Virus record (IMG/VR): IMGVR_UViG_3300034198_030559
Location: 1 to 27,737 of that record
Strand: one strand, 5' to 3'
DNA length: 27,737 nucleotides
Origin: a virus
Shown here: positions 2,150 through 19,999 of the stretch, in pieces
How the letters are laid out: every line of letters begins with the position of its first letter
Numbering within the stretch: position 1 is the first letter of the stretch
The notes under the pieces: generated by a model
What the model was told of the DNA's origin: nothing
The model's input: the letters and a program-made list of their open reading frames with translations, nothing else
The model's database searches: none
Translations under genes and position numbers: made by a program

Positions 2150-3172
2150 ATGTCTAACATCTTTAATACTCATGGCGAACTAAACGCCAGCAACGTAAAA
2201 GAGGCACTTCAGCAGATCGTAAAATACGCATCTATCATCGAAGAGCTTCAGCCATCTAACTCTGTTGTCGCTTCTGCTCCATCTCTAACCGACGACCAGA
2301 GAGACGACATGATCAAGCAGGCTCTCATGACCCAGGAAGGCAAGATTGCTCTAGGTCAGGCCATGGCAACCCCAATCCGCCGCAACTTGGACTATCAGGG
2401 CGTTGGTCGTAAGGCTCTCGTTGTTGATCCACTGCCACAGGGCGCTCTACCCGTTTATGACCGCGACATCGACGTAGCCGCTGTCGTCGTCTCCTCTAAC
2501 GGTTCTGCTCCAGAAAGCCGTGTATTCGGTGACCGCGTAACCGTTCCCGAGTTCGAAATCGTCTCTAACCCCACCGTCCGTATTGCCGAAGTCAAGCGCC
2601 GCCGTTTCAACATCGTTGATCGCGCTCAGCAGAAAGCTCGTCAGGAAATCCAGGCTCAGGAAGATGCAAACGTCTTCGCAGCCCTTGATTTCGCTGGTGA
2701 TACCTCCAAGGGTGGCGAGAACGATTCTCAGACTCTCGACGTAAGCTCCAGACTTGGCCAGCTAGCCAAGGACGGCATGCTAAACCTCAAGCGTCAGATT
2801 GATCGTTGGGACCTCGTTACTTCCAAGTACTTCCTCAACATCAATGAGTTCACTGACATCCTAAACTGGGAATCTGCCGGTGCAGCCGGTAGCTCAATGG
2901 TTGATCCAGTCACCCAGAGAGAGATTCTCCAGACCGGTCTCTATGGCCAGATCTTCGGCGCCGATATCATCGTCTCCAAGATCGTTCCTGCTGGCAAGGC
3001 TTTCGCAACTGCAGAGCCAGAGCTAGTTGGTGTAATGCCAGTTCGCCAGGACATCGAGGTTCTACCTGCCGACGAGCCCAAGCAGCTCAAGCTCGGTTGG
3101 GTTGTTTCCGAGATCATCGGTATCGGTATCGTCAACCCCCGTGGCGTTGCCACCGGCACCGTCTCTGCCTAA
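2150..3172 (+). CDS. Major capsid protein (HK97 fold)
   Basis: A 340-residue protein whose layout fits HK97-fold major capsid proteins of myoviruses. A helical N-terminal arm (residues 1-75) is followed by TPIRRNLDYQGVGRKALVVD and then LPQGALPVYDRD, a segment type I associate with these capsid proteins. Next come the E-loop/P-domain region (EVKRRRFNIVDRAQQKARQEI, QEDANVFAALDFAG), an A-domain part (SKYFLNINEFTDILNWES, GLYGQIFGADIIVSKIV) and a C-terminal beta segment (LGWVVSEIIGIGIVNPRG). ATG 2150 follows a strong AAGGAG site. A perfect GC-rich terminator begins 22 bases after the stop. Codon use is strongly biased to C-ending codons, as expected for the most abundant phage protein. No separate protease or scaffold gene is visible in this window. 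Confidence 0.87.
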   Translation: MSNIFNTHGELNASNVKEALQQIVKYASIIEELQPSNSVVASAPSLTDDQRDDMIKQALMTQEGKIALGQAMATPIRRNLDYQGVGRKALVVDPLPQGALPVYDRDIDVAAVVVSSNGSAPESRVFGDRVTVPEFEIVSNPTVRIAEVKRRRFNIVDRAQQKARQEIQAQEDANVFAALDFAGDTSKGGENDSQTLDVSSRLGQLAKDGMLNLKRQIDRWDLVTSKYFLNINEFTDILNWESAGAAGSSMVDPVTQREILQTGLYGQIFGADIIVSKIVPAGKAFATAEPELVGVMPVRQDIEVLPADEPKQLKLGWVVSEIIGIGIVNPRGVATGTVSA

Positions 3173-4072: not shown

Positions 4073-6829
4073 ATGGCAAGAGCCTTTAATACCAAAATCT
4101 CAGGTGACCAGATCACACTTGAGGAGCGCTCCGGTCTTGGCACCGGTGGCTTAACTACCATTGACGCAACTGGCGGCCTAGCAGTAGACTGGAACGTTGT
4201 ACCAGACAAGAGCTCCGTAGAGTCAGTAATGACCGCAGAGTCTTCCACCAGACTCTCTGCTGATACCTCACTCACAACTCGCGTATCTTCTGAAGAAGTT
4301 GCTCGTTCTTCTGCAGACTCCGTAGAAGTCTCTGTCAGAGCTTCTGCTGATGCATCCCTTGAGTCTAGCCTCTCCGTAGAAGTTTCTACCAGAGGTTCTG
4401 CTGATACCTCCCTCACCACACGCCTCTCTTCTGAAGAAGTTACTCGCTCTTCTGCTGACTCTTCTCTCGCAGTCCTCGTCTCTGATGAGGTTTCATTAAG
4501 AGCTGCTGGTGATTCTTCTCTCACTGTTCGTCTCTCTACTGAAGAGTCCGCAAGAGAAGTTGGTGATTCTTCTCTAACCGTTCGCGTTTCTTCTGAGGAA
4601 GTTGCTCGCTCTTCCGCAGATTCTGTCGAAGCATCCGTAAGAGATTCTGCTGACGCCTCCCTCACCACTCGCGTTTCTTCCGAGGAAGTCACCCGTTCTT
4701 CTGCCGATTCTTCTCTCGCCGTCCTAGTATCTAGCGAAGTCTCTGCAAGAACTTCTGCTGATACCTCTCTTGCCGGTCGCATTTCCGACGAAGTTTCTCT
4801 AAGAGCTTCTGCTGATACCTCCCTCGCTGGTCGTATCTCTGACGAAGTTTCCCTAAGAGCTTCTGGCGATGCTTCTCTAGCCGTAAACCTCTCCAACGAG
4901 GCTTCTGTAAGAGCTTCTGCCGACACCTCTCTAACCACCCGTCTTTCTTCCGAAGAGGCCGCTCGCTCTACTGCAGATTCTTCTCTAGCAGTACTCGTCT
5001 CTGACGAGGTTTCTGTCAGAGCCGCAGGAGATTCCTCTCTCGCCGTTCGCATCTCTGATGAGGTTTCTACTCGTGCATCTGCCGATGATCTTGAGGCTTC
5101 AATCAGAGCTTCTGCCGACACCTCTCTAACCTCCAGAGTTTCCACCGAAGAGTCTTCAAGAACTGCCGGTGATTCATCTCTAGGAACAAGAGTAAGCATC
5201 ATCGAAGCCGGTATGGTTGCTGGCGTAACCTGGAAGGGTTCGTTCGCCACTGTAAGCGCTCTAACCTCATACATGGAAGCAGCCACTCCAGTTGCAGCTG
5301 GCGATACCGCAGCTTACAACTCTGTTATTGCTGCATCTGGTACTCCAGTCATGGAAGGTTGGGCATACTACGTCAAGGACGGTAACGACGCTTATGTTGT
5401 CGTCTCTGAAGTTGATGGCGATCTAACCATCTCTACCTGGGGCCCACTCGGTGTACTCTATTCTCTCGTTAAGTTTGCAGACTACAACGAACTTTCTGGT
5501 CTAGTAAGCAGCATCGATACCAGAATTTCTTCTGAAGCTTCAGCCAGAGCCGCAGCAGACACCTCACTCACAACTCGCCTCTCTACCGAAGAGTCCACCA
5601 GAGCAGTAGCAGACGGCTCCCTTGCAACCCTAATCTCTAACGAGGTTTCCGTAAGAGCTTCTGCAGATTCTGTCGAAGCCTCTGTAAGAGCTTCTGCTGA
5701 TTCCTCTTTGATGGGTCGCATTTCTGACGAAGTTTCCCTAAGAAGTGCTGGCGATTCCTCTCTAACTGTTCGCCTATCCTCTGAAGAGGTTGCTCGTTCT
5801 TCTGCAGACTCCGTTGAAGCTTCTGTAAGAGCCGCTGCCGATTCTTCTCTTGCCGTTCAGGTTTCTAGCGAAGAGTCTTCCAGAATCTCTGGTGACGCCT
5901 CTCTAACAACCCGTCTCTCTACCGAAGAGTCTGTACGTGATGCCGCTGATGCTCTTGAGGCCTCCACAAGAGCTTCTGCCGACACCTCACTAGAAACCCG
6001 TCTCTCTACCGAAGAGTCCACAAGAGCTTCTGGCGATACCTCCCTCACCACCCGTCTCTCCTCTGAGGAAGTAACTCGTTCTTCTGCCGATGCTTCTCTT
6101 GCTGGTCGCCTCTCTGACGAAGTTTCTCTAAGAACTTCTGGTGACGCTTCTCTCGCCGTTCGCGTTTCCAGTGAAGTTTCTGCAAGAACTTCCGCAGACA
6201 CCTCCCTAGAGACTCGCCTCTCTACTGAAGAGTCCGTAAGAGCTTCTGACGATACCTCGCTACAGACCCGTCTTTCTACCGAAGAGTCTGTAAGAGCTTC
6301 TGGCGAAGCTTCTCTAACCAGCCGCGTTTCTACTGAGGAAGATGCTCGCGCTTCTGTTGATTCTTCGATCGAAGCAAGACTATCTGATGCTGAAGTTTCC
6401 ATTGCTTCTGCCGAAACTTCCATCACTGCTGACGTTGCTACCAAGGTCTTCATGGCTAGAGTTGGTTCTGGTGGCTTCTCCGCTGTTTCCGCCGCAACCA
6501 ACATCGACCTCGATAGCGCTTCCAACCTCAAGAAGACCTTCACATTCAACTTCGGAGCCGATATCGTTCAGTCTGCACCATTCGTCTTCGTACCAGGACT
6601 CGAAGTCTTTGTAAACGGTAACCTCCTCAGACCAGTATTCGACGCATTTGGAGCCATCAAAGTTATTTCTGCACCAAGCTCCATTTCATTCGCCGGCCTA
6701 AATGGTGATTACCTCTTCTACTCTGACGTTGGCACCGATACCTTCGGTATAGCATTCCCCTTCAAGCTCACCAATGGTGACGAGATCCAGGTGCGCTATA
6801 ACCTAGTTGGTACTGAAGCAATCGCCTAG
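4073..6829 (+). CDS. Ser-rich repeat tail fibre / fibrous virion protein
   Basis: A 918-residue fibrous protein. Residues 1-55 form an N-terminal attachment region. Residues about 56-375 and 479-789 are near-perfect repeats of the form RASADTSLxxRLSxEES. Most are 18 residues long, with interspersed 11-residue units such as RSSADSVEASV. The 11/18 pattern (18 = 11+7) suggests a trimeric coiled coil with hendecad phasing, as in phage fibres. Between the tracts, residues about 376-478 form a globular insert (VTWKGSFATVSAL, WAYYVKDGNDAYVVV). The C-terminal 125 residues are beta-rich and contain LEVFVNG (843-849). Codons are C-ending and optimised as in the capsid gene, and a strong terminator follows, so the product should be abundant. 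Long minus-strand open frames beneath it are codon-bias artefacts. A whisker or head fibre is an alternative to a tail fibre. Confidence 0.8.
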   Translation: MARAFNTKISGDQITLEERSGLGTGGLTTIDATGGLAVDWNVVPDKSSVESVMTAESSTRLSADTSLTTRVSSEEVARSSADSVEVSVRASADASLESSLSVEVSTRGSADTSLTTRLSSEEVTRSSADSSLAVLVSDEVSLRAAGDSSLTVRLSTEESAREVGDSSLTVRVSSEEVARSSADSVEASVRDSADASLTTRVSSEEVTRSSADSSLAVLVSSEVSARTSADTSLAGRISDEVSLRASADTSLAGRISDEVSLRASGDASLAVNLSNEASVRASADTSLTTRLSSEEAARSTADSSLAVLVSDEVSVRAAGDSSLAVRISDEVSTRASADDLEASIRASADTSLTSRVSTEESSRTAGDSSLGTRVSIIEAGMVAGVTWKGSFATVSALTSYMEAATPVAAGDTAAYNSVIAASGTPVMEGWAYYVKDGNDAYVVVSEVDGDLTISTWGPLGVLYSLVKFADYNELSGLVSSIDTRISSEASARAAADTSLTTRLSTEESTRAVADGSLATLISNEVSVRASADSVEASVRASADSSLMGRISDEVSLRSAGDSSLTVRLSSEEVARSSADSVEASVRAAADSSLAVQVSSEESSRISGDASLTTRLSTEESVRDAADALEASTRASADTSLETRLSTEESTRASGDTSLTTRLSSEEVTRSSADASLAGRLSDEVSLRTSGDASLAVRVSSEVSARTSADTSLETRLSTEESVRASDDTSLQTRLSTEESVRASGEASLTSRVSTEEDARASVDSSIEARLSDAEVSIASAETSITADVATKVFMARVGSGGFSAVSAATNIDLDSASNLKKTFTFNFGADIVQSAPFVFVPGLEVFVNGNLLRPVFDAFGAIKVISAPSSISFAGLNGDYLFYSDVGTDTFGIAFPFKLTNGDEIQVRYNLVGTEAIA
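4235..5197 (+). repeat. First block of 54/33-bp in-frame coding repeats
   Basis: Tandem in-frame repeats of about 54 bp (18 codons), with shorter 33-bp (11-codon) units, encode variants of SADxSLxxRxSxEV(S)xR. Copies differ mostly at synonymous positions and at a few surface-type residues. This suggests old duplication plus selection on the protein rather than very recent slippage. Confidence 0.8.
5509..6440 (+). repeat. Second block of 54/33-bp in-frame coding repeats
   Basis: This is the same 18/11-codon repeat family as in the first block, resuming after the globular insert with SIDTRISSEASARAAADTSL. The unit order differs from block one, with runs of LETRLSTEES and LTTRLSTEES units near the C-terminal end. 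It ends where the beta-rich C-terminal domain begins (ASAETSITADVATKVF). Confidence 0.78.
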
Positions 6830-6855
6830 TAATAAAAAGCTGAACTAATTTGACG

Positions 6856-6895
6856 GAGGGGGTGAGAGAGTCTCACCCCCTCTTTTTTTTGTTTT
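6856..6895 (+). terminator. Rho-independent terminator after the fibre gene
   Basis: A 12-bp perfect stem, GAGGGGGTGAGA (6856-6867) with TCTCACCCCCTC (6871-6882), has a 3-base GAG loop and is followed by a run of eight T then GTTTT. It is 26 bases beyond the fibre stop codon and should isolate the fibre transcript from the next operon. Confidence 0.92.
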
Positions 6896-6932: not shown

Positions 6933-7283
6933 ATGAATTCTAGAGATAAGTTGTTAAATTTAATTTCGCAAATAAAAAATGCAAAAAGCGAAAGCAGCAA
7001 GGCAGTTTCATATTCAGAAGGTTACTTGGATTGTCTTAAGGACATCTTAAATGATGATTGCAACGATCTTAATAAGATAATTATGGTAAAATATGATGGA
7101 AAAGTAAGGGAGGAGGTTTATTCTGAGGTTCTTCCAATACTAGAATCTATTAGCGAGCAAAATAAGCCAAATCAGGCAGGACCGGAAAATACTGGTATTG
7201 CGTCACAAGAAGACACAGAGTATTCTGCAATGCACCCTACGGACAGAGCTAGAAGCTTTTTAGAGAGAATTGGGAGGGCTTAA
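6933..7283 (+). CDS. Small helical protein, function unknown
   Basis: A 116-residue protein, MNSRDKLLNLISQIKNAKSE. The first 95 residues look helical, with Lys/Glu/Leu periodicity; the last part is a flexible linker (NKPNQAGPENTG) followed by HPTDRARSFLERIGR. ATG 6933 follows TTAGGAG at 6921-6927. It is the first gene after the fibre terminator and starts a three-gene, partly overlapping plus-strand cluster (6933-7939). An ATTACTAATTAAG element (6898-6910) lies 35 bases upstream. I recognise no family; a role in fibre or neck assembly is only suggested by position. Confidence 0.65.
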   Translation: MNSRDKLLNLISQIKNAKSESSKAVSYSEGYLDCLKDILNDDCNDLNKIIMVKYDGKVREEVYSEVLPILESISEQNKPNQAGPENTGIASQEDTEYSAMHPTDRARSFLERIGRA

Positions 7284-7284
7284 T

Positions 7285-7608
7285 ATGCCTGTTTATGTTA
7301 AACCTAAAAATAAAGTTTGTCAAGAGAGAGCTGAAAATGATGCAAACTTTTATTACAAACCATTTGAAGAGCTGCTACTTCAAGATCATAAAGAAGCTCT
7401 TTCATCCGAGACAAGACAGCAATTGTTAAGGCTAAATAAGTGGGTTATGTCATATAAAGCTTTTGCTTTCAGATATCATTTTGAAAACTTTGTCCAGGCA
7501 AACGATATATATGCAGATCCCGATGATGCCATTCGGTTTCCAATTAATAATGATATTCCAAACGCTCCATTTTTAGAAGTATTTGAGGAAATAGATGGCA
7601 ATAATTAA
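7285..7608 (+). CDS. Small protein, function unknown
   Basis: A 107-residue protein, MPVYVKPKNKVCQERAEND, with a middle region likely to be helical (SSETRQQLLRLNKWVMSYKAFAFRYHFENF) and an acidic tail. I chose ATG 7285 over the upstream TTG at 7270 because GGGAGGG (7272-7278) lies 6 bases before it, while the TTG overlaps that ribosome site. The start is one base after the previous stop codon, and the end overlaps the next gene by 14 bases, so the three are translationally coupled. No family recognised. Confidence 0.68.
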   Translation: MPVYVKPKNKVCQERAENDANFYYKPFEELLLQDHKEALSSETRQQLLRLNKWVMSYKAFAFRYHFENFVQANDIYADPDDAIRFPINNDIPNAPFLEVFEEIDGNN

Positions 7609-7939
7609 CATCCCCATTTCCTTAGGGCTTTCAATAACAAATGAGGGCGAGACTGATTATGCCACTAGTCTTATACGAACCGATAATGGTGGTATAATTT
7701 ATATAAATGAAGACATAACAAAGCAGGTTTCTGCCGGAAAGAGTGATTACAGAACTACTTATAATTTTATGGCATCATCTCTTGAGGTTTTCGTGAACGG
7801 AATGAAAGTTTCTCACGAATTTGATTTCACAGAAAACGTGGCAAAAAATGGATTTGATTTTATAACTAACGGTGGAAACTTCAGCAAATGGCTTCACGCA
7901 ACATCTGTTATCATGGTGAAATATATAAAATCTAGCTAA
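7595..7939 (+). CDS. Small fibre-module protein (LEVFVNG domain)
   Basis: A 114-residue, beta-rich protein, MAIINIPISLGLSITNEG. Residues 63-69 read LEVFVNG, identical to a segment in the C-terminal domain of the 918-residue fibre. Both proteins continue with a hydrophobic strand pattern and end in a V-x-V-(R/K)-Y strand (VRYNL in the fibre, MVKYIK here). This matches a common phage fibre module in which LEVxxNG leads a small beta domain. It therefore looks like a stand-alone version of that domain, perhaps a fibre cap, attachment protein or assembly partner. The start overlaps the previous gene by 14 bases. The stop overlaps the stop region of the convergent minus-strand gene by 8 bases. Confidence 0.68.
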   Translation: MAIINIPISLGLSITNEGETDYATSLIRTDNGGIIYINEDITKQVSAGKSDYRTTYNFMASSLEVFVNGMKVSHEFDFTENVAKNGFDFITNGGNFSKWLHATSVIMVKYIKSS

Positions 7940-9008
7940 TGTTATCTATAAGCCTTCTATACTTTGTTATGTTTTCTGGATTCTCTGCAGAGAACTTAAA
8001 AATAACTTCTTTCGCTGATTTTTTATAGTTCTCTATATTTTCATCGTGAGTTTCTATCGCCCTCTTTATTTGAGATATGCAGCTATCTGCGCTAAATGTC
8101 TCATAGAAATATCCGGCATCTTTGCAAAAATCACTATTGTGAATAACTGGGTGCCCAGAATAGAATCCTTCCAATGTCAGATAGTTTAAATCGCAATAGA
8201 ATTGGTGCGAGAGAATCATTCCAACATAGCCTTTTGCGATCATATTTGGCAGCGGGTATCTGCCCTCTGCTGATATCTTTTTATTTAAAAATATATCAAA
8301 ATTTGAAGTTACTTCTTTAAATTTTGGATTTTCTTTTAGGTGTATTGCATTAAACACCAGAATCTCTTTTATTACGTTTTTGTCTTCTCTTTCCAACTTT
8401 TCAAGCGCAACGAGAGGATAAATGCAAGTCTTTATTATATTTATGTTTGATTCAAAGATTCCAACTTTTCTTATATTTGAATTATTCTTATAAAAAATAT
8501 CTAGGTCATGCATCTTGCAATATTTATTAAATATTTTTGGAGACCAAATATAAGGACAGACATCTACCTTTCCTTTCGAGGTAGTCTCAACAAAGCCTTT
8601 TGAAAATTCAAAATGTGGCGAAATCCAGGAGTCAAGTCCGCCTCTATTTACGGCAGGATTACTCTTTGGATTCAGTATTAAATCTTCCTGCATTAACATT
8701 AAGATATTTCCGTAATTTACGGTTATTACTTTAATTCCCTTCTTTTTTGCATAATCCAATAGACTATCGGTGACAGAGTAACAAACCTCTATAATTAGAT
8801 CGTAGTTTGTTATCGTATCTTTATTCAGGAGAAGAATTTCATGTTCCTCGATGAATTTTTTGGCATCATCAAACTGAGAAACTGGGTCTACTCTCTTGTA
8901 TCCTATTTTTTTAAGTAATTCAATTAAAAAATAAGCATTTTGAGTCAAGCCATTTGACCAAAGCTTAGAAGAGTCCTTGCAGGTTACGCCTATTTTAAGT
9001 TTTCTCAT
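7932..9008 (-). CDS. DUF2827 glycosyltransferase-like protein (copy B)
   Basis: A 358-residue protein, MRKLKIGVTCKDSSKLWSNG. It carries the hallmark order I know for DUF2827: an opening IG(V/I)T strand with WSNGLxQNxYFL, then PYIWSP, VGIFESNINIIKT, LVFNAIHLKE, AEGRYPLPN, and a C-terminal FYSGHPVIHNSDFCKDAGYFY. The last segment resembles the donor-binding region of GT-B glycosyltransferases. The substrate is unknown. It is the second gene of a two-gene minus-strand unit; its ATG overlaps the stop of its paralogue by 4 bases (9005-9008). It lies opposite in direction to all surrounding virion genes, a typical accessory (moron-like) placement. Modification of the Ser-rich fibre, another virion protein or host surface glycans are alternatives. 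Confidence 0.82.
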   Translation of the reverse strand: MRKLKIGVTCKDSSKLWSNGLTQNAYFLIELLKKIGYKRVDPVSQFDDAKKFIEEHEILLLNKDTITNYDLIIEVCYSVTDSLLDYAKKKGIKVITVNYGNILMLMQEDLILNPKSNPAVNRGGLDSWISPHFEFSKGFVETTSKGKVDVCPYIWSPKIFNKYCKMHDLDIFYKNNSNIRKVGIFESNINIIKTCIYPLVALEKLEREDKNVIKEILVFNAIHLKENPKFKEVTSNFDIFLNKKISAEGRYPLPNMIAKGYVGMILSHQFYCDLNYLTLEGFYSGHPVIHNSDFCKDAGYFYETFSADSCISQIKRAIETHDENIENYKKSAKEVIFKFSAENPENITKYRRLIDNIS

Positions 9009-10090
9009 TTTAAAACGCCCTCAATAAGTGCTCTTGTATTTTCTTGATTTTTTTCGTTGTAAATTGAAACTTGTTCCAACTTTGCTTCATAAGATTCGAT
9101 ATGCGAAACTTGGTCGAAAGAATCCAGCGCTTCTATCAAAGCATCAGAGCCCTTATTTACATCAAATTCCGGATAGTAATAGCCGACATCTTTAAATAAT
9201 GGGCTATTGTGAATTAGCAACCTTTTATAAAACAAAGTCTCTATGTAAACGTAATTTTGCTCATTAAACAATTGGCTTGATACAATTGTATTTGCATTGT
9301 TATTTTTAAATATCTTATATAGTGGATATCTACCTTCGTATGAAGATACTTTATTTTTATGCATATTAAGACATTTTATGTAGTTCATAAAAACATTATT
9401 TTTATCTAAAGATTTTGAATTGAAGCAAAGAACCTCTTTTACCAGATCCGCTCTCTTGTCGTAAGCCATGTCGCATATCGCCAGAGGAACCATGCAGTTT
9501 TTTAATATGTTAAGATTTGGCTCAACAATAGCAATTTTTTTAAAATCATCTTTTTTGACTTTCATATCATGGTTATGAAAACCTTCATCGTACATTCTCA
9601 ATATGGAAGAGTCCCAGATATAAGGAATTACTTTAACGTTAGTTCTCGTAAGAACTTCTATGTAATCCTTGAATTTATAAAATTGTTCCGAAACCCAAAT
9701 TTCTCTATTTCGAAATGGAATATTTACGCCCGTAGAAAAATTCTTATTCTCTCCTGACTTTTGAATATATTTTTCTAAATCTATCATGAATGAATTTCCA
9801 TATTTTATGGAAATTAGAGGCTTTCCAAGGCTGTTGTAATATGACGTCAGTTTCTCACTCAACGGGTGAGCAACCTCTAAAACAATATCAAACTCCCTGA
9901 TTGAATAAATATCCTGTTTTTCTACAGGTATATCAACAAGCTTTAGTGAGTTTTGAGCCTCGGTAATTAGGTGCGGATCATAACCCATATCTTCGAGCAT
10001 TTTGTACAAAAAGTATATGTTCTGATCTAAGCCATTAGACCAGATACTTGCTTCGTCTCTGGTTGTAATTCCTATTTTTAATTTTTTCAT
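9005..10090 (-). CDS. DUF2827 glycosyltransferase-like protein (copy A)
   Basis: A 361-residue paralogue of the next gene: MKKLKIGITTRDEASIWSNG, LDQNIYFL, IPYIWDSSIL, IAIVEPNLNILKNC, EVLCFNSKSLDKN, YEGRYPLYKI, and LLIHNSPLFKDVGYYYPEFD. The same motif order and similar length identify it as DUF2827, with a GT-B-like C-terminal segment. A good ribosome site, GAGAGGAGC, directly precedes the minus-strand ATG at 10090. The 45-base divergent gap (10091-10135) separates it from a plus-strand structural gene and contains an ACTACTATCAATAAT element on the minus strand. Two diverged copies suggest two different donor or acceptor specificities, or a heteromer. Codon use is AT-rich, like most of the window, so it has adapted to this genome. 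Confidence 0.83.
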   Translation of the reverse strand: MKKLKIGITTRDEASIWSNGLDQNIYFLYKMLEDMGYDPHLITEAQNSLKLVDIPVEKQDIYSIREFDIVLEVAHPLSEKLTSYYNSLGKPLISIKYGNSFMIDLEKYIQKSGENKNFSTGVNIPFRNREIWVSEQFYKFKDYIEVLTRTNVKVIPYIWDSSILRMYDEGFHNHDMKVKKDDFKKIAIVEPNLNILKNCMVPLAICDMAYDKRADLVKEVLCFNSKSLDKNNVFMNYIKCLNMHKNKVSSYEGRYPLYKIFKNNNANTIVSSQLFNEQNYVYIETLFYKRLLIHNSPLFKDVGYYYPEFDVNKGSDALIEALDSFDQVSHIESYEAKLEQVSIYNEKNQENTRALIEGVLK

Positions 10091-10135: not shown

Positions 10136-10468
10136 ATGGGTTTAGGCAGCTACTTACTTGGAGCAGAAGTAAAGATACCGGTACAAGTAACCTTAAATGG
10201 AAAGCCACTTGTCGGACAAGTTCCGACAATAGAAAAGATAATAAAACCGAACGGGTCCTTAGTTCCTGGATTACCAGCATTGGCAACGGCAATTGATTCA
10301 AGTTCCGCCACATATTATTATAGCTTTACTCCGCAAGTTGTTGGAGATTATATCGTTATAATAAAAACAACGTTAAGTGGTGAAGATTATGTTACTATAG
10401 ACAACTTCACAGTTTCGTCTCAGTCTCAAAAACAAGTTATATCTGCACCAAGAGCGGAGCCCAAATAA
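10136..10468 (+). CDS. Small Ig-like beta-sandwich virion protein
   Basis: A 110-residue protein, MGLGSYLLGAEVKIPVQVTL, whose alternating hydrophobic strands look like a single Ig-like beta sandwich: VKIPVQVTLNGKPL, ATYYYSFTPQ, GDYIVIIKTTLSG. I chose ATG 10136 because AGGTGATTTC precedes it; the in-frame TTG at 10115 lies in the intergenic AT element. The stop overlaps the next ATG by one base (TAATG), so both are co-translated. Its strand pattern resembles the N-terminal domain of that next protein, suggesting related folds. A role in the neck or tail is inferred from context. Confidence 0.68.
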   Translation: MGLGSYLLGAEVKIPVQVTLNGKPLVGQVPTIEKIIKPNGSLVPGLPALATAIDSSSATYYYSFTPQVVGDYIVIIKTTLSGEDYVTIDNFTVSSQSQKQVISAPRAEPK

Positions 10469-11376
10469 TGGCAAACACAAGAAGCAAGGCGATTCGAGGA
10501 CAAGATGTAATATTATCCATTCAATATTATGGTATCGATGGACTTCCAACTGATGCTGATTCTACACCCGAAATAACCATAAAAGATTTAAATGGAAATA
10601 CTATTGTTGGTCCGACATCTACCGGCATAACCAGAGTTGAGCTTGGATTATATCAGTATTTATATTCGGTCCCAAAGCTATCTGACAAGGGCAACTGGAC
10701 GGATAACTGGTCCGCACAAATAGGCGGAATCTCTGTTCAGAACGTATTTCAGTTTCTTGTTGTCGATGAGTCTTCTGCGATTTCGGGCTCAATTAGGCTT
10801 GGCGATGATGTTAATTTTGACTTTACAGATGCTGAAATTCTAGGCATAAACGTTCTTTTGAAATTTCTTAAAGCAAGACTTCGTAATTCGGGAAAGAAGC
10901 CAAAGAGAGATGAATTTGGCGCAATAATGTATGATTCGTATGGTGAAGTCATTACAGAGGAGTGTGATGTTTTCTCTGATGATATTCTAATTTGTTTTCT
11001 TTGTCAAGCTCTCTCTGAATTTAATATGATTCCATTCTTTACAAGTTTTACTTTTGCCGATGAAGTTATCTACAAATTGTTTGCCGCAGCCCTTGTTGAG
11101 GGAGCTTACGTTTTTGCAATATCTTCTCAAGCCCTAATTGAAAAAGGCAGAGATTTCACAATAAGCGATGGAGGCCTGTCTTATCAGCCTCCTGCTCTTG
11201 GCGACTTCTTACAGACACATTTTGGCACATGGCTTACTAGCTATAGAGAAAGGTTGAAGTTCATAAAGAATAGCATCAGGCCTGGACCGAGAAGCTTTGG
11301 TACATACAGCAACTTAACAAGTGGTAGTCCGGCCCTGAATCGTCTTCGCCACGTAAGATCTCGCAGAATTATATAG
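10468..11376 (+). CDS. Neck/adaptor-like structural protein with N-terminal Ig-like domain
   Basis: A 302-residue protein, MANTRSKAIRGQDVILSIQY. Residues 1-100 form a beta-sandwich-like domain (EITIKDLNGNTIVG, LGLYQYLYSVP, GNWTDNWSAQIGG). Residues 105-240 are helical, with two conserved-looking Cys near 171 and 175 (ILICFLCQAL). Residues 220-302 read ALIEKGRDFTISDGG...YQPPALGDFL..., then RERLKFIKNSIRPGPRSFGTYSNL and LNRLRHVRSRRII. I associate this tail with uncharacterised structural proteins in other large myoviruses, but cannot name a family. The helical bundle plus basic C-terminus would suit a head-tail connector or adaptor; that role is inference. The basic C-terminus could bind DNA in the neck channel. 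Confidence 0.7.
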   Translation: MANTRSKAIRGQDVILSIQYYGIDGLPTDADSTPEITIKDLNGNTIVGPTSTGITRVELGLYQYLYSVPKLSDKGNWTDNWSAQIGGISVQNVFQFLVVDESSAISGSIRLGDDVNFDFTDAEILGINVLLKFLKARLRNSGKKPKRDEFGAIMYDSYGEVITEECDVFSDDILICFLCQALSEFNMIPFFTSFTFADEVIYKLFAAALVEGAYVFAISSQALIEKGRDFTISDGGLSYQPPALGDFLQTHFGTWLTSYRERLKFIKNSIRPGPRSFGTYSNLTSGSPALNRLRHVRSRRII

Positions 11377-12989: not shown

Positions 12990-14987
12990 ATGTTTTCTTT
13001 AACTGGAGTCAGTCCTCCGGAGGGTTCCAAACGAAATCCTCTAGATACGTTAATTGAATTCACAATAGTCGATGACGGTACTGGCATTAATTCATCAACA
13101 TTAATTGTTCAAATTAACGGAGTCACTGCAGTAGAAGGCTCTGATTTTAAACCAGGGTTTGCCGGAATTTATTCTGATATAAATCCGGTTGGAAGTAATT
13201 TATCAGTTGTTATTAATCCTGAAAATACATTTGAAGAAAACTCAATAATAAATATAAAAATACAAGTTCAAAATTTTTTAGGAAAATACAATAATTTTAA
13301 CTATTCGTTCAAAGTTATTGAGAATAAGCCATATTTGTTTTTTTCTTCTCCAGAAAATAATTCAAATGTAATATCTCCGCAGAAGGTTTTTCTTCAGTTT
13401 AGGGATGATTCTTTTGATCTGGATTCTTCATCTCTAAATGTAACAATTAATGGTGCATATGCTATAAAAAATGGTGTATTTCAAAATGGGTTTAACGGAA
13501 TTGGCAGCGAAATTACGCTAGTATCGCTTAGAGACCTGGAAGTTACAATTGACCCAGACGAATTTCTTAGAGATGGAACATATACCTTACGTTATGATAT
13601 AAAGAATTCTGATTCAAAAATCCTTTCTTCTTTGTTTAAATTTTTCATAAAATATACTGAAGTTCCGCTCCCAGACATCTTTCCTCAAGGTGGCTTTGTT
13701 GGATTCTTTCAGGGTGTTACGTCGGTACGAGATCTTGGAAATGGAAAAGATGTTTATATAAGCTGGTCAAAGCCTGCTTCAAGATTTTATAATAGCGATA
13801 TATATGTATTGCTTTACTACTCGGAAGATCGTTTAAAAATATTTGATTCCGAACCAAAGTATCTTGTCGACAGTTCTATACTGGAAACAACACTATCAGA
13901 ATTTTCCGTTGGAATAGGATATTATTTCGCCGCAAGAGTCATGGAGACATACAAGGATTCCTTGAACACGGGCGGAATGGGCGAGCTCTCTCCTGGCATC
14001 TTTTATCTACCTTCTCCGACATCTCTTTCTGAAGAAATTTCTGACGAATCAACCATAATAAAAGTTTCAAGCGTTGTCGGCTTTCCTGCGACGGGGCTCC
14101 TCAAGATAGGAACTGAGGTTATAAGATATAACTCAATAAATTTTGATGAAAATCAGTTTCTTGTTCCTTCGGGCGGAAGAGGACTCTCTGGCACAACTCC
14201 GTCATATCATGACGCTGCCGATGCCGTCGAAATGTTTTTATCCTGCCAGGATGATAATAACGTTATTATCTATGGTTCATGCACCTATCAAGATCAAGAG
14301 TCGACAGGACGACAATATAATGCAGTTGGTTTGATTGTACCTGACTTTTCTGATTTCGAGAAAATGGCGCATGATGGCTTAGACCACTGCGGATACCACC
14401 AACCATTACCATGGGAAGTTCTAAACAATAAAAACGATTGCGGAACGTACCTTGGTGGTGAATACAATGGATTTAGAGGTGTAAATATATATCAGAGAGC
14501 CTTGGATAGAGAAGAGGAACTCATGGAGAACGTTGGTGAAAAATGCGTTCTTCTCAAAAGGCTGTGGTCTGGAGAAACATGTAGCTGCGTCACTCTAAGA
14601 AGACAGCATCCTAAAATTAGAAGTTGCAAGTTCTGCTTTGGCACCGGTATCGTTGGAGGGTACGAGCAATATGTGAACCAAAGAAGGGCGGATAAGAGGG
14701 TTTTAATCAGATTCTATGAGACTCCCGAAAATCTGGCGCTTGGAGATCATCAACATTTAAATCAAGACTTTAAGCCAACGGCCCTAGCCTTATATAAGCC
14801 GATCATAAAAGATCGCGATGTAATAATAAGATTTGATTATACTGATGACATTGAATTCATATATGAGGTTCTTGATTCATCAAGAGAGAGGTTTGTATTT
14901 AACAAGTATGGAAGGCAGAAACTAAACCTAATGAGAATGGATAAGACGGACATTCTATATCAGTATCCATTTGTAAAAAATATATAG
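12990..14987 (+). CDS. Multi-domain Ig/FN3-like baseplate or tail protein with Cys4 cluster
   Basis: A 665-residue protein. Two tandem Ig-like domains fill residues about 1-110 and 111-225. Both contain the pattern F-x-(I/F)-x-D-D, SS-L-x-V-x-(I)-N-G, and a GFxGI...V-x-(I)-x-P segment. Residues 235-345 look FN3-like (VYISWSKPASRFYNSDIYVLLYYS). Residues 345-415 contain the phage fibre pattern TIIKVSSVVGFPATGLLKIG...GGRGLSGTTPSYHDAADAV. The C-terminal 250 residues hold Cys531, Cys533, Cys546 and Cys549 in C-x-C...C-x2-C-FGTG, likely zinc-binding, followed by GGYEQY. ATG 12990 follows GTGGAG. Such Cys/GTG-GGY segments occur, as I recall, in other myovirus tail or neck proteins. A baseplate or tail-connecting role is inferred. 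Confidence 0.75.
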   Translation: MFSLTGVSPPEGSKRNPLDTLIEFTIVDDGTGINSSTLIVQINGVTAVEGSDFKPGFAGIYSDINPVGSNLSVVINPENTFEENSIINIKIQVQNFLGKYNNFNYSFKVIENKPYLFFSSPENNSNVISPQKVFLQFRDDSFDLDSSSLNVTINGAYAIKNGVFQNGFNGIGSEITLVSLRDLEVTIDPDEFLRDGTYTLRYDIKNSDSKILSSLFKFFIKYTEVPLPDIFPQGGFVGFFQGVTSVRDLGNGKDVYISWSKPASRFYNSDIYVLLYYSEDRLKIFDSEPKYLVDSSILETTLSEFSVGIGYYFAARVMETYKDSLNTGGMGELSPGIFYLPSPTSLSEEISDESTIIKVSSVVGFPATGLLKIGTEVIRYNSINFDENQFLVPSGGRGLSGTTPSYHDAADAVEMFLSCQDDNNVIIYGSCTYQDQESTGRQYNAVGLIVPDFSDFEKMAHDGLDHCGYHQPLPWEVLNNKNDCGTYLGGEYNGFRGVNIYQRALDREEELMENVGEKCVLLKRLWSGETCSCVTLRRQHPKIRSCKFCFGTGIVGGYEQYVNQRRADKRVLIRFYETPENLALGDHQHLNQDFKPTALALYKPIIKDRDVIIRFDYTDDIEFIYEVLDSSRERFVFNKYGRQKLNLMRMDKTDILYQYPFVKNI

Positions 14988-14995
14988 AGGATTTT

Positions 14996-15241
14996 ATGTG
15001 GATAAAGAACAGCAGAGGCAGAAAAGATGCCATGTTAACGTTTGCAACGATTTCTTTTCTTGTTGTAACTATGAACATCGTTCTTGTTTCATTTTCTCCA
15101 ATATTTGAAAAATACTTATCTTTTTCTTTTATTCCAGTTGATATAGCAATATTGACAATGTATATGTCATCAACATTTACCGCTTATGTCGCCAGGAAAT
15201 GGACTGATATAGGAAAGAAGGAAGACCAACAAAATGAATAA
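14996..15241 (+). CDS. Holin-like two-span membrane protein
   Basis: An 81-residue protein, MWIKNSRGRKDAMLTFATIS. It has two hydrophobic segments, about 13-33 (MLTFATISFLVVTMNIVLVS) and 45-66 (FIPVDIAILTMYMSSTFTAY), then ARKWTD and a charged tail. Short N-terminal charged region, two spans, and an AYxxRK(W/Y)T ending resemble small phage holins I have seen in other genomes. AGAGGA precedes ATG 14996, 8 bases after the previous stop. The gene overlaps the next by 8 bases. Holin function is plausible but unproven; a virion membrane-interacting protein is an alternative. Confidence 0.6.
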   Translation: MWIKNSRGRKDAMLTFATISFLVVTMNIVLVSFSPIFEKYLSFSFIPVDIAILTMYMSSTFTAYVARKWTDIGKKEDQQNE

Positions 15242-15464
15242 AGCCTATCTGATTAAAAAACTTGCAGAACTAAATGCAAAAACTGAGTTAGTAATTCATA
15301 AAAAGCTATCAAAAATAATTACTAATAGTTCTGATGATAATAACCATCTTAATTCAGATGATGGAGATAAGATATACTTTGATATCAATATTGTCCCAAT
15401 AAAAGAGCTTATGAATCAAACTGATATCGAAAAAATAACAATAAAACCGGTTTCACTAGGTTAA
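15234..15464 (+). CDS. Small hydrophilic protein, function unknown
   Basis: A 76-residue protein, MNKAYLIKKLAELNAKTELV, with an N-terminal helix, an Asn/Asp/Ser-rich linker (NSSDDNNHLNSDDGD) and a beta-like C-terminus (KIYFDINIVPIKEL, IEKITIKPVSL). It starts within the stop region of the holin-like gene, indicating coupled translation. No family recognised. Confidence 0.6.
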   Translation: MNKAYLIKKLAELNAKTELVIHKKLSKIITNSSDDNNHLNSDDGDKIYFDINIVPIKELMNQTDIEKITIKPVSLG

Positions 15465-15475
15465 TTAGGTAAATT

Positions 15476-15736
15476 ATGTTAAAGCATACTTCGTTAATTA
15501 TTTTCATACTTTTTAACATTTCTTATTTCTTTAAGAATTATGATGAAATTTCAAGTATGATTACAAGTTTTTCAAAAGCAGATCTTAGATACTTTGATGT
15601 CATACCATATCATACATTTGAACCATCAATTATATTGCCAATAAGCAACTCATCATCGGATGTTGAACCAACCTCAAATATAGACGGCGGGTACTACGAA
15701 TCAACCGATTTTGAAGAAAAATATTTAGTATATTAA
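15476..15736 (+). CDS. Small protein with N-terminal membrane anchor or signal sequence
   Basis: An 86-residue protein, MLKHTSLIIFILFNISYFFK. Residues 6-19 form a short hydrophobic core after a basic start, so it is likely a signal anchor. There is no lipobox Cys. The remainder is polar and acidic at the end (YESTDFEEKYLVY). TTAGGTAA lies just before ATG 15476. It follows the holin-like gene closely, so it might be part of a lysis or membrane module, for example a spanin-like subunit, but this is inferred from position only. Confidence 0.55.
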   Translation: MLKHTSLIIFILFNISYFFKNYDEISSMITSFSKADLRYFDVIPYHTFEPSIILPISNSSSDVEPTSNIDGGYYESTDFEEKYLVY

Positions 15737-15769
15737 AAAGAACAATATATTAAATTATAAGTATAGAGT

Positions 15770-18700
15770 ATGTCAAATTCAAAATATCCAAATCAAATAG
15801 ATACATCTGCAGAGCTACCTATAGTAAGAAATAACTTAAATGAGATAGGTGCAGATTCTATAAATTCTATTCGATCCGCCATAATTCAAATAGAGAAGAC
15901 CTTGGGATTAAATCCCCAGGGTGCCATAGGAAATACCGTTTCATCCAGGTTGTCCAAAAGTCTTGACGCATCTGGCTCAATACTGAAGGAAGCTCTGGAT
16001 AAGGCGAATGTCATTTATGGACCGATTTCAAATGACAATATAGCGAAGACGGCAGCGATAGAAGAAGAAAAGCTAAAGCTAAATTTTCCAACCACTGTTT
16101 TACAATCTCAAATCTCTTATGTCAACTCAATTATAGATTCATTAGAGCTGCAAATAAAAGAAATTAGCGCAAATCTATCTTCACATTTAAACAAGAGTGC
16201 TTCCGCAAGACATCCCGCGACTGCAATTTCAACCACATCATTCTCCGGATCTTCTTCAGAATCTTTGAAATCGATAGCAGACTCTAACGTACAGGCCGTC
16301 ATCGAAAGCATTGTATCATCTCATATAAATTATGATGGGTTAAATATATCGCAGGATAATAACTCACACAACTCAAATCAGATATATTTTGACAACGCGA
16401 GCACAAGCTCCGTTATCTCTTCCTCCACCGTTCAAGGGGCAATTGAAGATCTGGTTGCGGCACCAATTGTCGCAATAGAAAATTACAAGAATTATAATAA
16501 TTCAAACGGTGTTGTAAGAAAAGCAAATATATCTGACATCAACAACTCATCATATGGCATTCTTATTGCTTCCGGAATATCTATCACGATATTAAAGAAT
16601 CTTTCTTACTCTAAGATAATAAACATATCACTTGCCTCGGATATTTCCAGGCCAGACTTTGATTTAAAAAAATCAGATCAAATATCTGTAATCTCAAACG
16701 GAATAGAAAGAACTTTTCAAATTTATAAAGTAAATTATAATCCCTCAGATTTAACAAAGATATCCTCTTTTGATGTCTTTGGCACTGCAAACGAGGATAT
16801 AACATCAAGTAATTCTTTTATATATTACAAGCACAAAACAGACTATATAAAAACTTCTCTTTTGATGAGTGCAGTGCAAAATCAATCACTAACTTCATCA
16901 TCAACTGTAATGGTCTGTAATCCCGGTTCTGCATCAGTTATATCTTCTTCAATAAAGATCGGAGAGATAACGGCCACAAACAGATATTTTGATATATCTA
17001 TAAATGATGGTGCGGCATACAGCATAGATTGTTATGTTCTGTCTGGCGTAACGCTTGACGCAATTGTAGGTTATATAAACGAACAATTTGATGGCTACCT
17101 ACTTCCTGTATTGGCTTATCGCGTCGATCTTGAGGATGGCGGCTCTGAGATTGCAATTTGTTCGAATGTTGCAACTGGCGATTCTGAAGATATCTATTTT
17201 AAAATAACAAGATCTTCAGATGACGGAATTGATTCAATTGGTTTTTCATTCTGTGAAGATAAAAATATTTATGGAAAATATTCAACATCATTTGTTATCA
17301 ATGGAAAGGAGAAGAACTCTCTCGCCACTAAGTTAAAAACTCAAAGCATGAGTTTTTCAGCTGGTCTAAATGTAATAGAGACTTCAGATTCCGCATTAAA
17401 TTTAGTTACAAGTGGAATTAAGAAAGGCGATATAATCACAATTCTTGGCTCTGGCCAAAATATATCACTCAAAATAGCGGCAGTTACAGAGTCAACATTA
17501 ACAATATCCTCAAATCAGTTACCATCCGGTTTTTTAACATCCAGCACTGATGGGATAACATATATAGTCTATAATAACACATTAGACTTTTCGGATTATG
17601 AATTCCTAAAGGTGGCAGGATCCTTCGGGAGCACACTTTTCGAAATTTTTGCAGATCAGGATGCAAATCTATTTTACAATCCAATTGCCGAATTGGAAAC
17701 GCCAGTACTAATTGATTCTGCGCTTATTACGGTCGTTGATATTGAAAATAAATTTGCTGTAGAGCAAGCAACAATTAATTATACGCAAACGGCAGATGGC
17801 TATGTATCTCTAAGTCTTGATCAGGGACAGCAAATAAAGATTGTTGGAGATCATAATTACGTAAAATTAATTTCCAACAACGAAGCTCTAAAAATAACTG
17901 TTTATGTTCCAAGTAAGGATGATTTATATAGTTACATAGGCTCTAGCTCAGAAACAAGCTCTTTTATTTATCTGTTCGACTCAGTAGACGAAAATAATAA
18001 TTTAGTCATATCACAGATAGCTTATAATAACTTCTCTTCCTCACTTGTTGGAGGCATGGGCTCTGCAAGAGCTTTCTCTAGATTAAGCTATGGTATAATT
18101 TCTAACAAAGACATTTCAAATCTATTTATTGAGACGGCTGTAAGTAGCTCTACTGCGGAACTAAGAAGCAATGGAGTGGTTTTTGGACTAGAAGTCTTGT
18201 CAGGATCTGTAGGAATAGATGGAGTATATATAGTTAGTATAGGCTCTGGATCTTGTTACGTTGGTGGAAGAAAATTTATATTTAAAAATTTTGAAAATAT
18301 TTCGACCGGCATAAATTCCTCAGACACCGACAAGGTATATATAGGGGTAGATCAGGACGGAAATCTTATTTTCGAATCTTGCGACCCAGTTTGCAACTAT
18401 CCTTGGCAGGATTTGAACGTTGCTCTGCTGGGCAGCATAGAGCTATCCGCTGGAATTATCTATCCGTATGACCAAAGATTATTTATAAGTGAAATTGATC
18501 TAAAGATATTAAACTCAATTACAGTAAGTTCTCAGCCTGGAATGGCGCATTTCACAGATCTGGTGAAAGCAATAAAATATGCGAAGAGATTTTCGCAAAT
18601 ATTCCCATCCGCCGGCACCCCAGAAATTCACATGAAATCTGGAGTACATACTGTAAATGTAGATATAACAACAGAGCTATCCATTCTTGATTGGTATTCT

Positions 18701-19999
18701 GCGGTAATTACTATTGCAGAAGATGACACAAGGAAAGATTATTATGATTCTCTAATAAAGAGTGGATTTTGGATTGACTTTCCAGTCACAATATCTGGTG
18801 AGGGAACCTCAACAAAAGTAAAAATATTTTATAACGTCTCTGCCGCCGATGGGGATTTTGTTCTTGCGGGAGCTATAACAATACCCGGATATGGATTTAA
18901 TCAAACTGGAATACATGCCACGTTAGCACACGATAGATTTTATAGTGGGTTTTTAACTCTAAGAAATTTTGAGCTAACAACTGGCGGAATACACATAATA
19001 GACCTGAATAATTATGATTCACTTGGAAATAAATACGACTTTAAATTGGATATAGTTGGAATTTCAAAACTTAATGAGACAACCGGCCTATCAACTTCCT
19101 TTGCTTACTATTATTCGTTCTCATCTATCGAGATAAGTGAGCAAGATGATTCTGTAACAAATAAGGGAAATATCTCTATAAGAGATTGTTATATTAAGTC
19201 TTCGAACGATCTTCTGTCTCCTATAGATTTTACACCACCTTCTGCGTCAACAAGATATAAAAATATAAATCTCTTAAATAATATAACAACTTCGATAGAG
19301 CCAATAACAAGTCCCTCTATATTTGATACGTCTGATTTTCCACCCGAAAATGACATTACGTCTATAGGAAACTCAACACCATCTGTTTTGATTGCAGATA
19401 AGGTTGATCGCATATCAAATCATTTAGTTCTTGGTGGACAACTAACGACATCAGATATCTTTTTTGATACCGCAAGAAAAACTTCCAAAACTTATTGGTT
19501 TTATCAAAGTCAAATAATTGTTGGAACGGATGCTCTATACTATTTTGACGCATATGATCCACTTTTTGTTGGAGTTATATCCCCGGAAGATAGAATTTAC
19601 AGCCCTCCATATGGAGCTTATACTCGACCACTTGTTAATGTAAATATATCAGAAAGCGTTTCCTCGCCCATTGAGATCTTGCCTGGCCAGAAGCTAACTT
19701 CTGTAAAAATTACTGGTAATTTTACGGCATCATCACAGATTGAGGTTTTAATTATAAAAGAAAGTCCTCTTAGCATAGGATCTTACACAACTGTTGTTTC
19801 ATCTGGAACTTTATCCTCATTTACTGCATCTGGCGAACGTTTTTTCGAATTTGACTGTTCTTATAAGCCGGCTATGCTGCAACAACACTATTTAATAATA
19901 AATCTTCTAGCGTCATCAGCATCGCAAGATGGGTTCAGCAAAGCTATATTAACTTTTGAATCCACAAATCTATCAGAAATATTGGGAATCTCAGAATGA
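15770..19999 (+). CDS. Giant tail fibre/baseplate protein, paralogue 1
   Basis: A 1409-residue protein. Residues 1-160 are a conserved module: KYPNQIDTSAELPIVRNNL, EIGADSINSIRSAIIQIEKT, LGLNPQGAIGNTVSSRL, GPISNDNI, KLKLNFPTTVLQSQIS, then a coiled coil. It is followed by several beta domains, including GIKKGDIITILGSGQNISLK. A conserved middle block (GSARAFSRLSYGIIS...AVSSSTAELRSNGVVFG) precedes a beta-helix-like region (HFTDLVKAIKYAKRFSQIF, HMKSGVHTVNVDI, DFPVTISGEGTSTKV, NISIRDCYI). The last about 110 residues (SPIEILPGQKLTSVKITGNF onward) look like a beta-sandwich, absent from paralogue 2. The beta-helix suggests a tailspike-like receptor-binding or depolymerase function, but no catalytic residues can be assigned. 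Its stop overlaps the start of paralogue 2 (ATGA). Confidence 0.8.
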   Translation: MSNSKYPNQIDTSAELPIVRNNLNEIGADSINSIRSAIIQIEKTLGLNPQGAIGNTVSSRLSKSLDASGSILKEALDKANVIYGPISNDNIAKTAAIEEEKLKLNFPTTVLQSQISYVNSIIDSLELQIKEISANLSSHLNKSASARHPATAISTTSFSGSSSESLKSIADSNVQAVIESIVSSHINYDGLNISQDNNSHNSNQIYFDNASTSSVISSSTVQGAIEDLVAAPIVAIENYKNYNNSNGVVRKANISDINNSSYGILIASGISITILKNLSYSKIINISLASDISRPDFDLKKSDQISVISNGIERTFQIYKVNYNPSDLTKISSFDVFGTANEDITSSNSFIYYKHKTDYIKTSLLMSAVQNQSLTSSSTVMVCNPGSASVISSSIKIGEITATNRYFDISINDGAAYSIDCYVLSGVTLDAIVGYINEQFDGYLLPVLAYRVDLEDGGSEIAICSNVATGDSEDIYFKITRSSDDGIDSIGFSFCEDKNIYGKYSTSFVINGKEKNSLATKLKTQSMSFSAGLNVIETSDSALNLVTSGIKKGDIITILGSGQNISLKIAAVTESTLTISSNQLPSGFLTSSTDGITYIVYNNTLDFSDYEFLKVAGSFGSTLFEIFADQDANLFYNPIAELETPVLIDSALITVVDIENKFAVEQATINYTQTADGYVSLSLDQGQQIKIVGDHNYVKLISNNEALKITVYVPSKDDLYSYIGSSSETSSFIYLFDSVDENNNLVISQIAYNNFSSSLVGGMGSARAFSRLSYGIISNKDISNLFIETAVSSSTAELRSNGVVFGLEVLSGSVGIDGVYIVSIGSGSCYVGGRKFIFKNFENISTGINSSDTDKVYIGVDQDGNLIFESCDPVCNYPWQDLNVALLGSIELSAGIIYPYDQRLFISEIDLKILNSITVSSQPGMAHFTDLVKAIKYAKRFSQIFPSAGTPEIHMKSGVHTVNVDITTELSILDWYSAVITIAEDDTRKDYYDSLIKSGFWIDFPVTISGEGTSTKVKIFYNVSAADGDFVLAGAITIPGYGFNQTGIHATLAHDRFYSGFLTLRNFELTTGGIHIIDLNNYDSLGNKYDFKLDIVGISKLNETTGLSTSFAYYYSFSSIEISEQDDSVTNKGNISIRDCYIKSSNDLLSPIDFTPPSASTRYKNINLLNNITTSIEPITSPSIFDTSDFPPENDITSIGNSTPSVLIADKVDRISNHLVLGGQLTTSDIFFDTARKTSKTYWFYQSQIIVGTDALYYFDAYDPLFVGVISPEDRIYSPPYGAYTRPLVNVNISESVSSPIEILPGQKLTSVKITGNFTASSQIEVLIIKESPLSIGSYTTVVSSGTLSSFTASGERFFEFDCSYKPAMLQQHYLIINLLASSASQDGFSKAILTFESTNLSEILGISE
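15779..15813 (+). repeat. 35-bp exact direct repeat, copy 1
   Basis: This stretch at the 5' end of paralogue 1 is base-for-base identical to 20002-20036 at the 5' end of paralogue 2. It encodes (S)KYPNQIDTSAE. Flanking regions are similar in protein but diverged in DNA. Confidence 0.9.

Follow-up and report, generated by a model that had tools for sequence, protein, structure and literature searches.

The 27,737-nucleotide stretch of DNA analysed here (the window) comes from a virus record. Its virion cluster contains two adjacent minus-strand genes whose products are both matched by Pfam family PF10933 (DUF2827) along nearly their full length, at scores to be compared with a family cut-off of 25 bits. 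The pair and the features around it are as follows.

2150–3172, plus strand: major capsid protein (phrog_2522, E 4e-72)
4073–6829, plus strand: repetitive fibre of 918 aa, the proposed acceptor; 29% Ser+Thr, repeats, weak PHROG tail-fibre match
6855–6883, plus strand: terminator-like hairpin with a 13 bp stem and a T tract, found by pattern scan directly after the fibre
6933–7939, plus strand: three small ORFs (116, 112 and 114 aa) between the fibre and the pair; no family; kept in relatives L003–L006
7932–9008, minus strand: DUF2827 gene 1, 358 aa (PF10933, 246.5 bits, E 5e-73)
9005–10090, minus strand: DUF2827 gene 2, 361 aa, the first gene of the minus-strand pair (PF10933, 209.6 bits, E 8e-62)
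10136–11376, plus strand: two genes (110 and 302 aa) that border the pair on the side away from the fibre; kept in all relatives including L015

The two DUF2827 proteins are 31% identical and their genes overlap by 4 bp, bearing out the preliminary description of an inverted pair of paralogues inside the virion cluster. The tight fit reported there also agrees with our measurements: the plus-strand ORF at 7595–7939 overlaps the pair by 8 bp, and the gap from the pair to the ATG at 10136 is 45 bp, shrinking to 24 bp should translation begin at the upstream TTG (10115). The Ser/Thr-rich fibre that had been noticed nearby lies 1.1 kb from the pair and is indeed built of repeats, with a period of 18 residues. 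The strong hairpin at 6855–6883 sets this fibre apart from the small ORFs and the DUF2827 pair, and promoter matches found by scanning the region were at chance level. Two very large ORFs of the virion cluster (15770–19999 and 19996–23583; 1409 and 1195 aa) have no Pfam or PHROG match. The major capsid protein is 48% identical to gp27 of Bacillus phage G, and we used it as the query for viral relatives with and without DUF2827.

Conservation and predicted fold of the DUF2827 pair

Four related viral contigs carry the pair in the identical slot, order and orientation, at 72–93% identity, and a fifth (L015) carries a more distant pair (46% to gene 1) with flanking genes as in the window. The two genes are therefore conserved coding sequence and not chance ORFs. 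In the family tree, the pairs of L015, L023 and L024 divide between the two copies of the window, their first genes grouping with gene 2 and their second genes with gene 1, indicating that both copies have been retained together since those phages diverged. Two arrangements depart from that of the window. The single fibre ORF of the window corresponds to two in L006 (12161–16978; 461 and 1140 aa), whose fibre is split, recombined or frameshifted. A 316-kb contig of the same capsid clade (L200, IMGVR_UViG_3300025133_009608; 14230–19626) has a different DUF2827 pair that lies downstream of an SLTTRLS fibre and is co-directional with it; because of these differences, we think that the module was probably swapped or reinserted there.

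An AlphaFold2 model of gene 1, computed with 84 relatives in the alignment, has a mean pLDDT of 95 and a pTM of 0.92. When the model was compared with the PDB by Foldseek, GT-B glycosyltransferases led the matches, with E values down to 3e-10. The best match is the GT4 enzyme BshA (E 3e-10, TM 0.63), and further matches include PimB', HepE, WaaG, PglA, TarM and SdgB. On the strength of this model, gene 1 is predicted to be a GT-B glycosyltransferase with two Rossmann-like domains in the GT-B arrangement, as the preliminary description had anticipated; gene 2 is assigned to the fold by homology only. A sequence-profile search of the PDB returned no relative of DUF2827, and hence no relation to a solved GT4 structure at the level of sequence. 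A UDP-sugar donor is no more than a guess from the nearest folds.

Among 84 DUF2827 members, W155, H290, G299 and Y302 are invariant, K193, R250 and N275 are nearly invariant, and position 280 always carries an acid (E or D). The putative nucleotide-site residues K193, R250, E/D280 and H290 are kept in both copies of the window and in 81–84 of the 84 members. The acid at position 280 we take to be the ribose-binding acid of GT4 enzymes, by way of the motif E-x6-G-x-P and without structural superposition. The canonical GT4 motif E-x7-E is incomplete in the pair, its first acid being absent and only its second (E/D280) present; at alignment position 272, gene 1 has C and gene 2 has N. Gene 2 keeps all near-invariant residues of the family except P287, which is replaced by L, and in gene 1 P187 is replaced by S. 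We count these two losses and the missing first acid against the explanation proposed below.

Linkage to repeat fibres in phages and trimeric adhesins in bacteria

Starting from DUF2827, we found by inspection a repetitive, coiled-coil-like fibre in about 22 of 33 viral loci, in several unrelated settings. In L046, a DUF2827 gene whose product is 24% identical to gene 1 is separated by about 75 bp from a fibre that also has the DASLTTRLSNEE repeats. Four other loci (L035, L038, L039 and L045) have SLSTA-type fibres that resemble Burkholderia adhesins.

The co-occurrence with Ser-rich repeat fibres that the preliminary description had proposed as a check was borne out when we started from the fibre. 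The pattern D-x-S-L-T-T-R-x-S-x-E-E gave 70 matching stretches in 2.9 million IMG/VR contigs. With six contigs already known to contain DUF2827 excluded, the family was found in 31 of 59 further motif contigs, mostly as the next gene; one of the 31 records holds only a 29-residue tail at the contig end. The DUF2827 gene lies within 5 kb of the motif in 26 of the 31, where 7.5 would be expected under random placement, and the DUF2827 genes of the 31 records fall into 25 groups at 90% identity and 11 at 50%. As a control we used a sister fibre motif without those Ser/Thr residues, A-D-T-(T/A)-L-Q-x-N-I-(N/D), and found DUF2827 in none of 50 contigs of at least 13 kb (P 4e-11 against 31 of 59; about 1e-9 after approximate collapse of duplicates). 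No DUF2827 was seen in the remaining 28 motif contigs, about one third of which are short or end near the fibre; several of the 28 are 38–58 kb long with room on both sides, and the 28 as a whole count against our explanation.

The capsid relatives give a second view of the linkage. Of the 26 relatives whose contigs continue downstream for at least 7 kb, five have both the fibre and DUF2827, 20 have neither, one has the fibre alone and none has DUF2827 alone (P 9e-5). In the sole exception (L187) the contig ends about 860 bp past the fibre, and the tail of a minus-strand DUF2827 gene lies there, in the same arrangement as in the window. Repeat ORFs in two control-set members (L155 and L158) were rejected as fibres of the window type, being collagen-like or shadow frames.

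The suggestion that the opposite orientation of the pair implies timing separate from the virion genes cannot be generalized, since DUF2827 genes are co-directional with the fibre in L200, L030, L036, L040 and L041. The viral neighbourhoods of DUF2827 in L036, L037 and L032 contain further glycosyltransferase-like genes (FINLDRRxDR motifs) and are perhaps larger glycan islands. Six forms of DUF2827 had no match in 50,697 phage records, and PHROGs contains no family that matches it, which may explain why DUF2827 has been missed in phages.

In bacteria, DUF2827 genes are annotated beside YadA-like proteins on Burkholderia plasmids. A genome scan with a mixed DUF2827 alignment yielded 80 bacterial loci, mostly in Burkholderiaceae and also in Neisseriaceae, Comamonadaceae, Oxalobacteraceae and Verrucomicrobiota, and nearly all of them have DUF2827 as a tandem pair or triple. 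A YadA anchor is present in 54 of the 80, and in 8 more an SLST passenger is cut by the contig end; usually adhesin and DUF2827 share a strand, with about 30–430 bp or about 1.24 kb separating the end of the adhesin gene from the first DUF2827 gene downstream. Ten whole genomes together contain 18 DUF2827 clusters and 55 Pfam YadA anchors; 15 of these clusters have an anchor no more than 5 kb away, where about 1% would be expected per cluster; the binomial P of about 4e-27 is nominal because the genomes are related. SLST repeats occur in all 15 of the DUF2827-linked adhesins and in 5 of 18 unlinked ones from the same genomes (P 3e-5). Such repeats have been described in Burkholderia adhesins (PMC2955633), for which O-glycosylation was suggested and no enzyme named (PMC7142374).

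No such adhesin was found at 18 of the 80 bacterial loci. A minority clade from Hydromonas and Verrucomicrobiota (L063, L091 and L101) is located among glycosyltransferase-like genes and not YadA-like adhesins; in L101 a 697-aa repetitive protein is encoded about 150 bp upstream of DUF2827. A third DUF2827 gene, from a clade of its own, is repeatedly found near the bacterial pair (for example, L055 12492–13586). The tree of the family cannot be explained with fewer than three changes between virus and bacterium.

The phage and bacterial repeats share a register. The unit of the window fibre is 18 residues long, (A/G)D-x-S-L-x-x-(R/L)-(V/L/I)-S, and its S-L pairs are spaced 18 or 29 residues apart; in the bacterial adhesins the spacings are 18, 14, 11 and 7. 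Each of these lengths is a combination of heptads and hendecads, the pattern seen in coiled coils. The bacterial core S-L-S-T-x-(L/I)-S and its phage counterpart S-L-T-T-R-(L/V)-S can be superposed at every residue. Ser or Thr occupies L-1 and L+5 in 100% of the 28 units of the window fibre and in 72–100% of units in three other DUF2827-linked fibres, compared with 17–50% and 0–33%, respectively, in four similarly built fibres of cultured phages that lack DUF2827. Some linked phage fibres (L023 and L025–L030) are poorer in Ser/Thr, which we counted against the fibre as acceptor. In L023 the units (GDSVLTSNLA) lack the S-L core and break the L-1/L+5 rule, and the acceptor may therefore differ from one lineage to another, as far as can be judged from the repeats alone.

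A proposed fibre glycosylation system and its alternatives

We propose that DUF2827 is a dedicated protein glycosyltransferase family for the Ser/Thr-rich trimeric coiled coils of bacterial adhesins and phage fibres, and we put the probability of this at about 0.74. The pair would be two cytosolic GT-B glycosyltransferases whose substrate, within the infected cell, is the long trimeric coiled-coil fibre of the phage itself. One or both enzymes would O-glycosylate the fibre repeats in the cytosol while virions are being assembled or earlier, attaching sugar to those Ser/Thr residues that hold fixed places in the register of the 18-residue units with the core S-L-(S/T)-T-x-(L/V/I)-S. Bacterial DUF2827 proteins would likewise modify SLST-repeat trimeric autotransporter adhesins before export. 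Family membership, the conserved pairing, the linkage to fibres and adhesins and the common repeat register are observed, and the GT-B fold of gene 1 is a prediction. The reaction, the activity of both copies and the fibre trimer are inferred, as is any benefit to the fibre, which might be solubility, resistance to proteases or a tuning of its antigen or receptor properties. There are no biochemical or mass data that demonstrate glycosylation itself, the sugar or the acceptor residues. Of the earlier idea that the phage glycosylates its own fibre or its capsid, the fibre part thus gains support from the linkage, with glycosylation still unshown, and there is no evidence for the capsid part.

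The main rival explanation is that the enzymes glycosylate a surface glycan of the host (LPS, capsule or teichoic acid), so as to block superinfection or change the receptor, and form a host-range module with the fibre. Surface-glycan glycosyltransferases of phages are well known, linkage to a fibre is what would be expected of host-range modules, WaaG and TarM are among the fold neighbours of gene 1, and L036 and L037 hold glycosyltransferase-like genes in addition to DUF2827. However, this explanation is weakened by the bacterial context, in which most homologues adjoin adhesin genes and not surface-glycan clusters, and by repeat specificity, as the linkage is to one repeat chemistry and not to coiled-coil fibres generally. 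Because the bacterial homologues adjoin Ser/Thr-rich trimeric adhesins, we favour a protein acceptor over host surface glycans, whose modification we judge unlikely. A protein acceptor can be argued independently from bacteria and from phages and is the most likely. Even so, gene linkage can also arise from co-transfer of fibre modules, and the bacterial loci of Hydromonas and Verrucomicrobiota that lack an adhesin amid other glycosyltransferase-like genes also count against our proposal.

Two further explanations were weighed. DUF2827 might be a folding or assembly chaperone derived from GT-B enzymes that binds Ser/Thr-rich coiled coils without transferring sugar. The same linkage data fit, the first acid of E-x7-E is missing, and there is precedent in GtfB of the SRRP system, a non-catalytic GT-B partner; but a pure chaperone would have no need of K193, R250, E/D280 and H290, and their retention makes this role quite improbable in our estimation. 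To the idea that another acceptor is modified, namely the capsid, the proteins encoded at 10136–11376 or phage DNA, with the fibre a mere neighbour, we give the least credence of all. The genes at 10136–11376 do flank the pair in every close relative, and capsid glycosylation has been reported for mycobacteriophages (Freeman et al. 2023, as cited in PMC11256854). Yet the 20 capsid relatives without the fibre share the capsid gene and also lack DUF2827, which disfavours the capsid as acceptor; L046 and L041 still share the fibre and DUF2827 in unrelated surroundings; and the bacterial members have no virion genes.

Within the proposal of a dedicated protein glycosyltransferase, we lean, short of real confidence, towards the idea that DUF2827 reads a portable acceptor signature, S-L-(S/T)-T-x-(L/V/I)-S set in a coiled coil of heptads and hendecads, and that the family has moved between bacterial adhesin loci and phage fibre modules. 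The evidence gives DUF2827 a concrete and testable function, and makes it a candidate enzyme with a short, portable acceptor. It is our proposed missing enzyme for the SLST-repeat adhesins of Burkholderia, with the same module in uncultured phages. If the proposal is true, DUF2827 would supply, for the first time, an enzyme for the O-glycosylation suspected in these adhesins and, in phages, a glycosylation system specific to fibres; there the modification would alter phage stability, host recognition and immune visibility.

Comparison with known systems

In the full text of 5.4 million open papers, DUF2827 is named in only one, a database paper. Several of the closest parallels come from adhesin glycosylation. 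GtfA–GtfB of Gram-positive bacteria is a pair of GT-B paralogues encoded beside a serine-rich repeat adhesin, and DUF2827 resembles it in being a pair of neighbouring GT-B paralogues next to a Ser/Thr-rich repeat adhesin or fibre, which is what defines an adhesin-linked pair. The two systems belong to different protein families. In the GtfA–GtfB type one partner is catalytic and the other is not, and the modification is O-GlcNAc on Ser. The GtfA–GtfB acceptor is an SRR domain, whereas that of DUF2827 is predicted to be a helical coiled coil, and both DUF2827 copies keep the conserved site residues, so that a division into active and inactive partners as in GtfA/GtfB is unsupported. In the BAHT/TibC–Aah and HMW1C systems, the gene for a cytosolic enzyme adjoins that of its autotransporter substrate, which is modified before export, as we propose for DUF2827 in bacteria; their passengers are monomeric, and the enzymes belong to the heptosyltransferase-like and GT41 families and not to DUF2827. 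SdgA and SdgB of Staphylococcus are GT-B enzymes for surface proteins with Ser-Asp repeats. SdgB is among the fold matches, with a TM-score of only about 0.47, 13% identity and no sequence relation found. BshA, the best fold match, differs in its low identity (about 15%), its small-molecule acceptor and its canonical E-x7-E.

Among phages, the glycosyltransferases of mycobacteriophages Che8 and Rita are thought to modify virion proteins (Freeman et al. 2023, via PMC11256854). That system is likewise phage-encoded with presumed virion-protein acceptors; it differs in that the acceptors are capsid proteins and not fibre repeats and the genes lie outside the virion cluster. Adhesin-linked glycosyltransferases and virion glycosylation are known kinds of system, and what appears to be new here is the enzyme family, the coiled-coil class of acceptor and the sharing of the family between phage fibres and bacterial adhesins.
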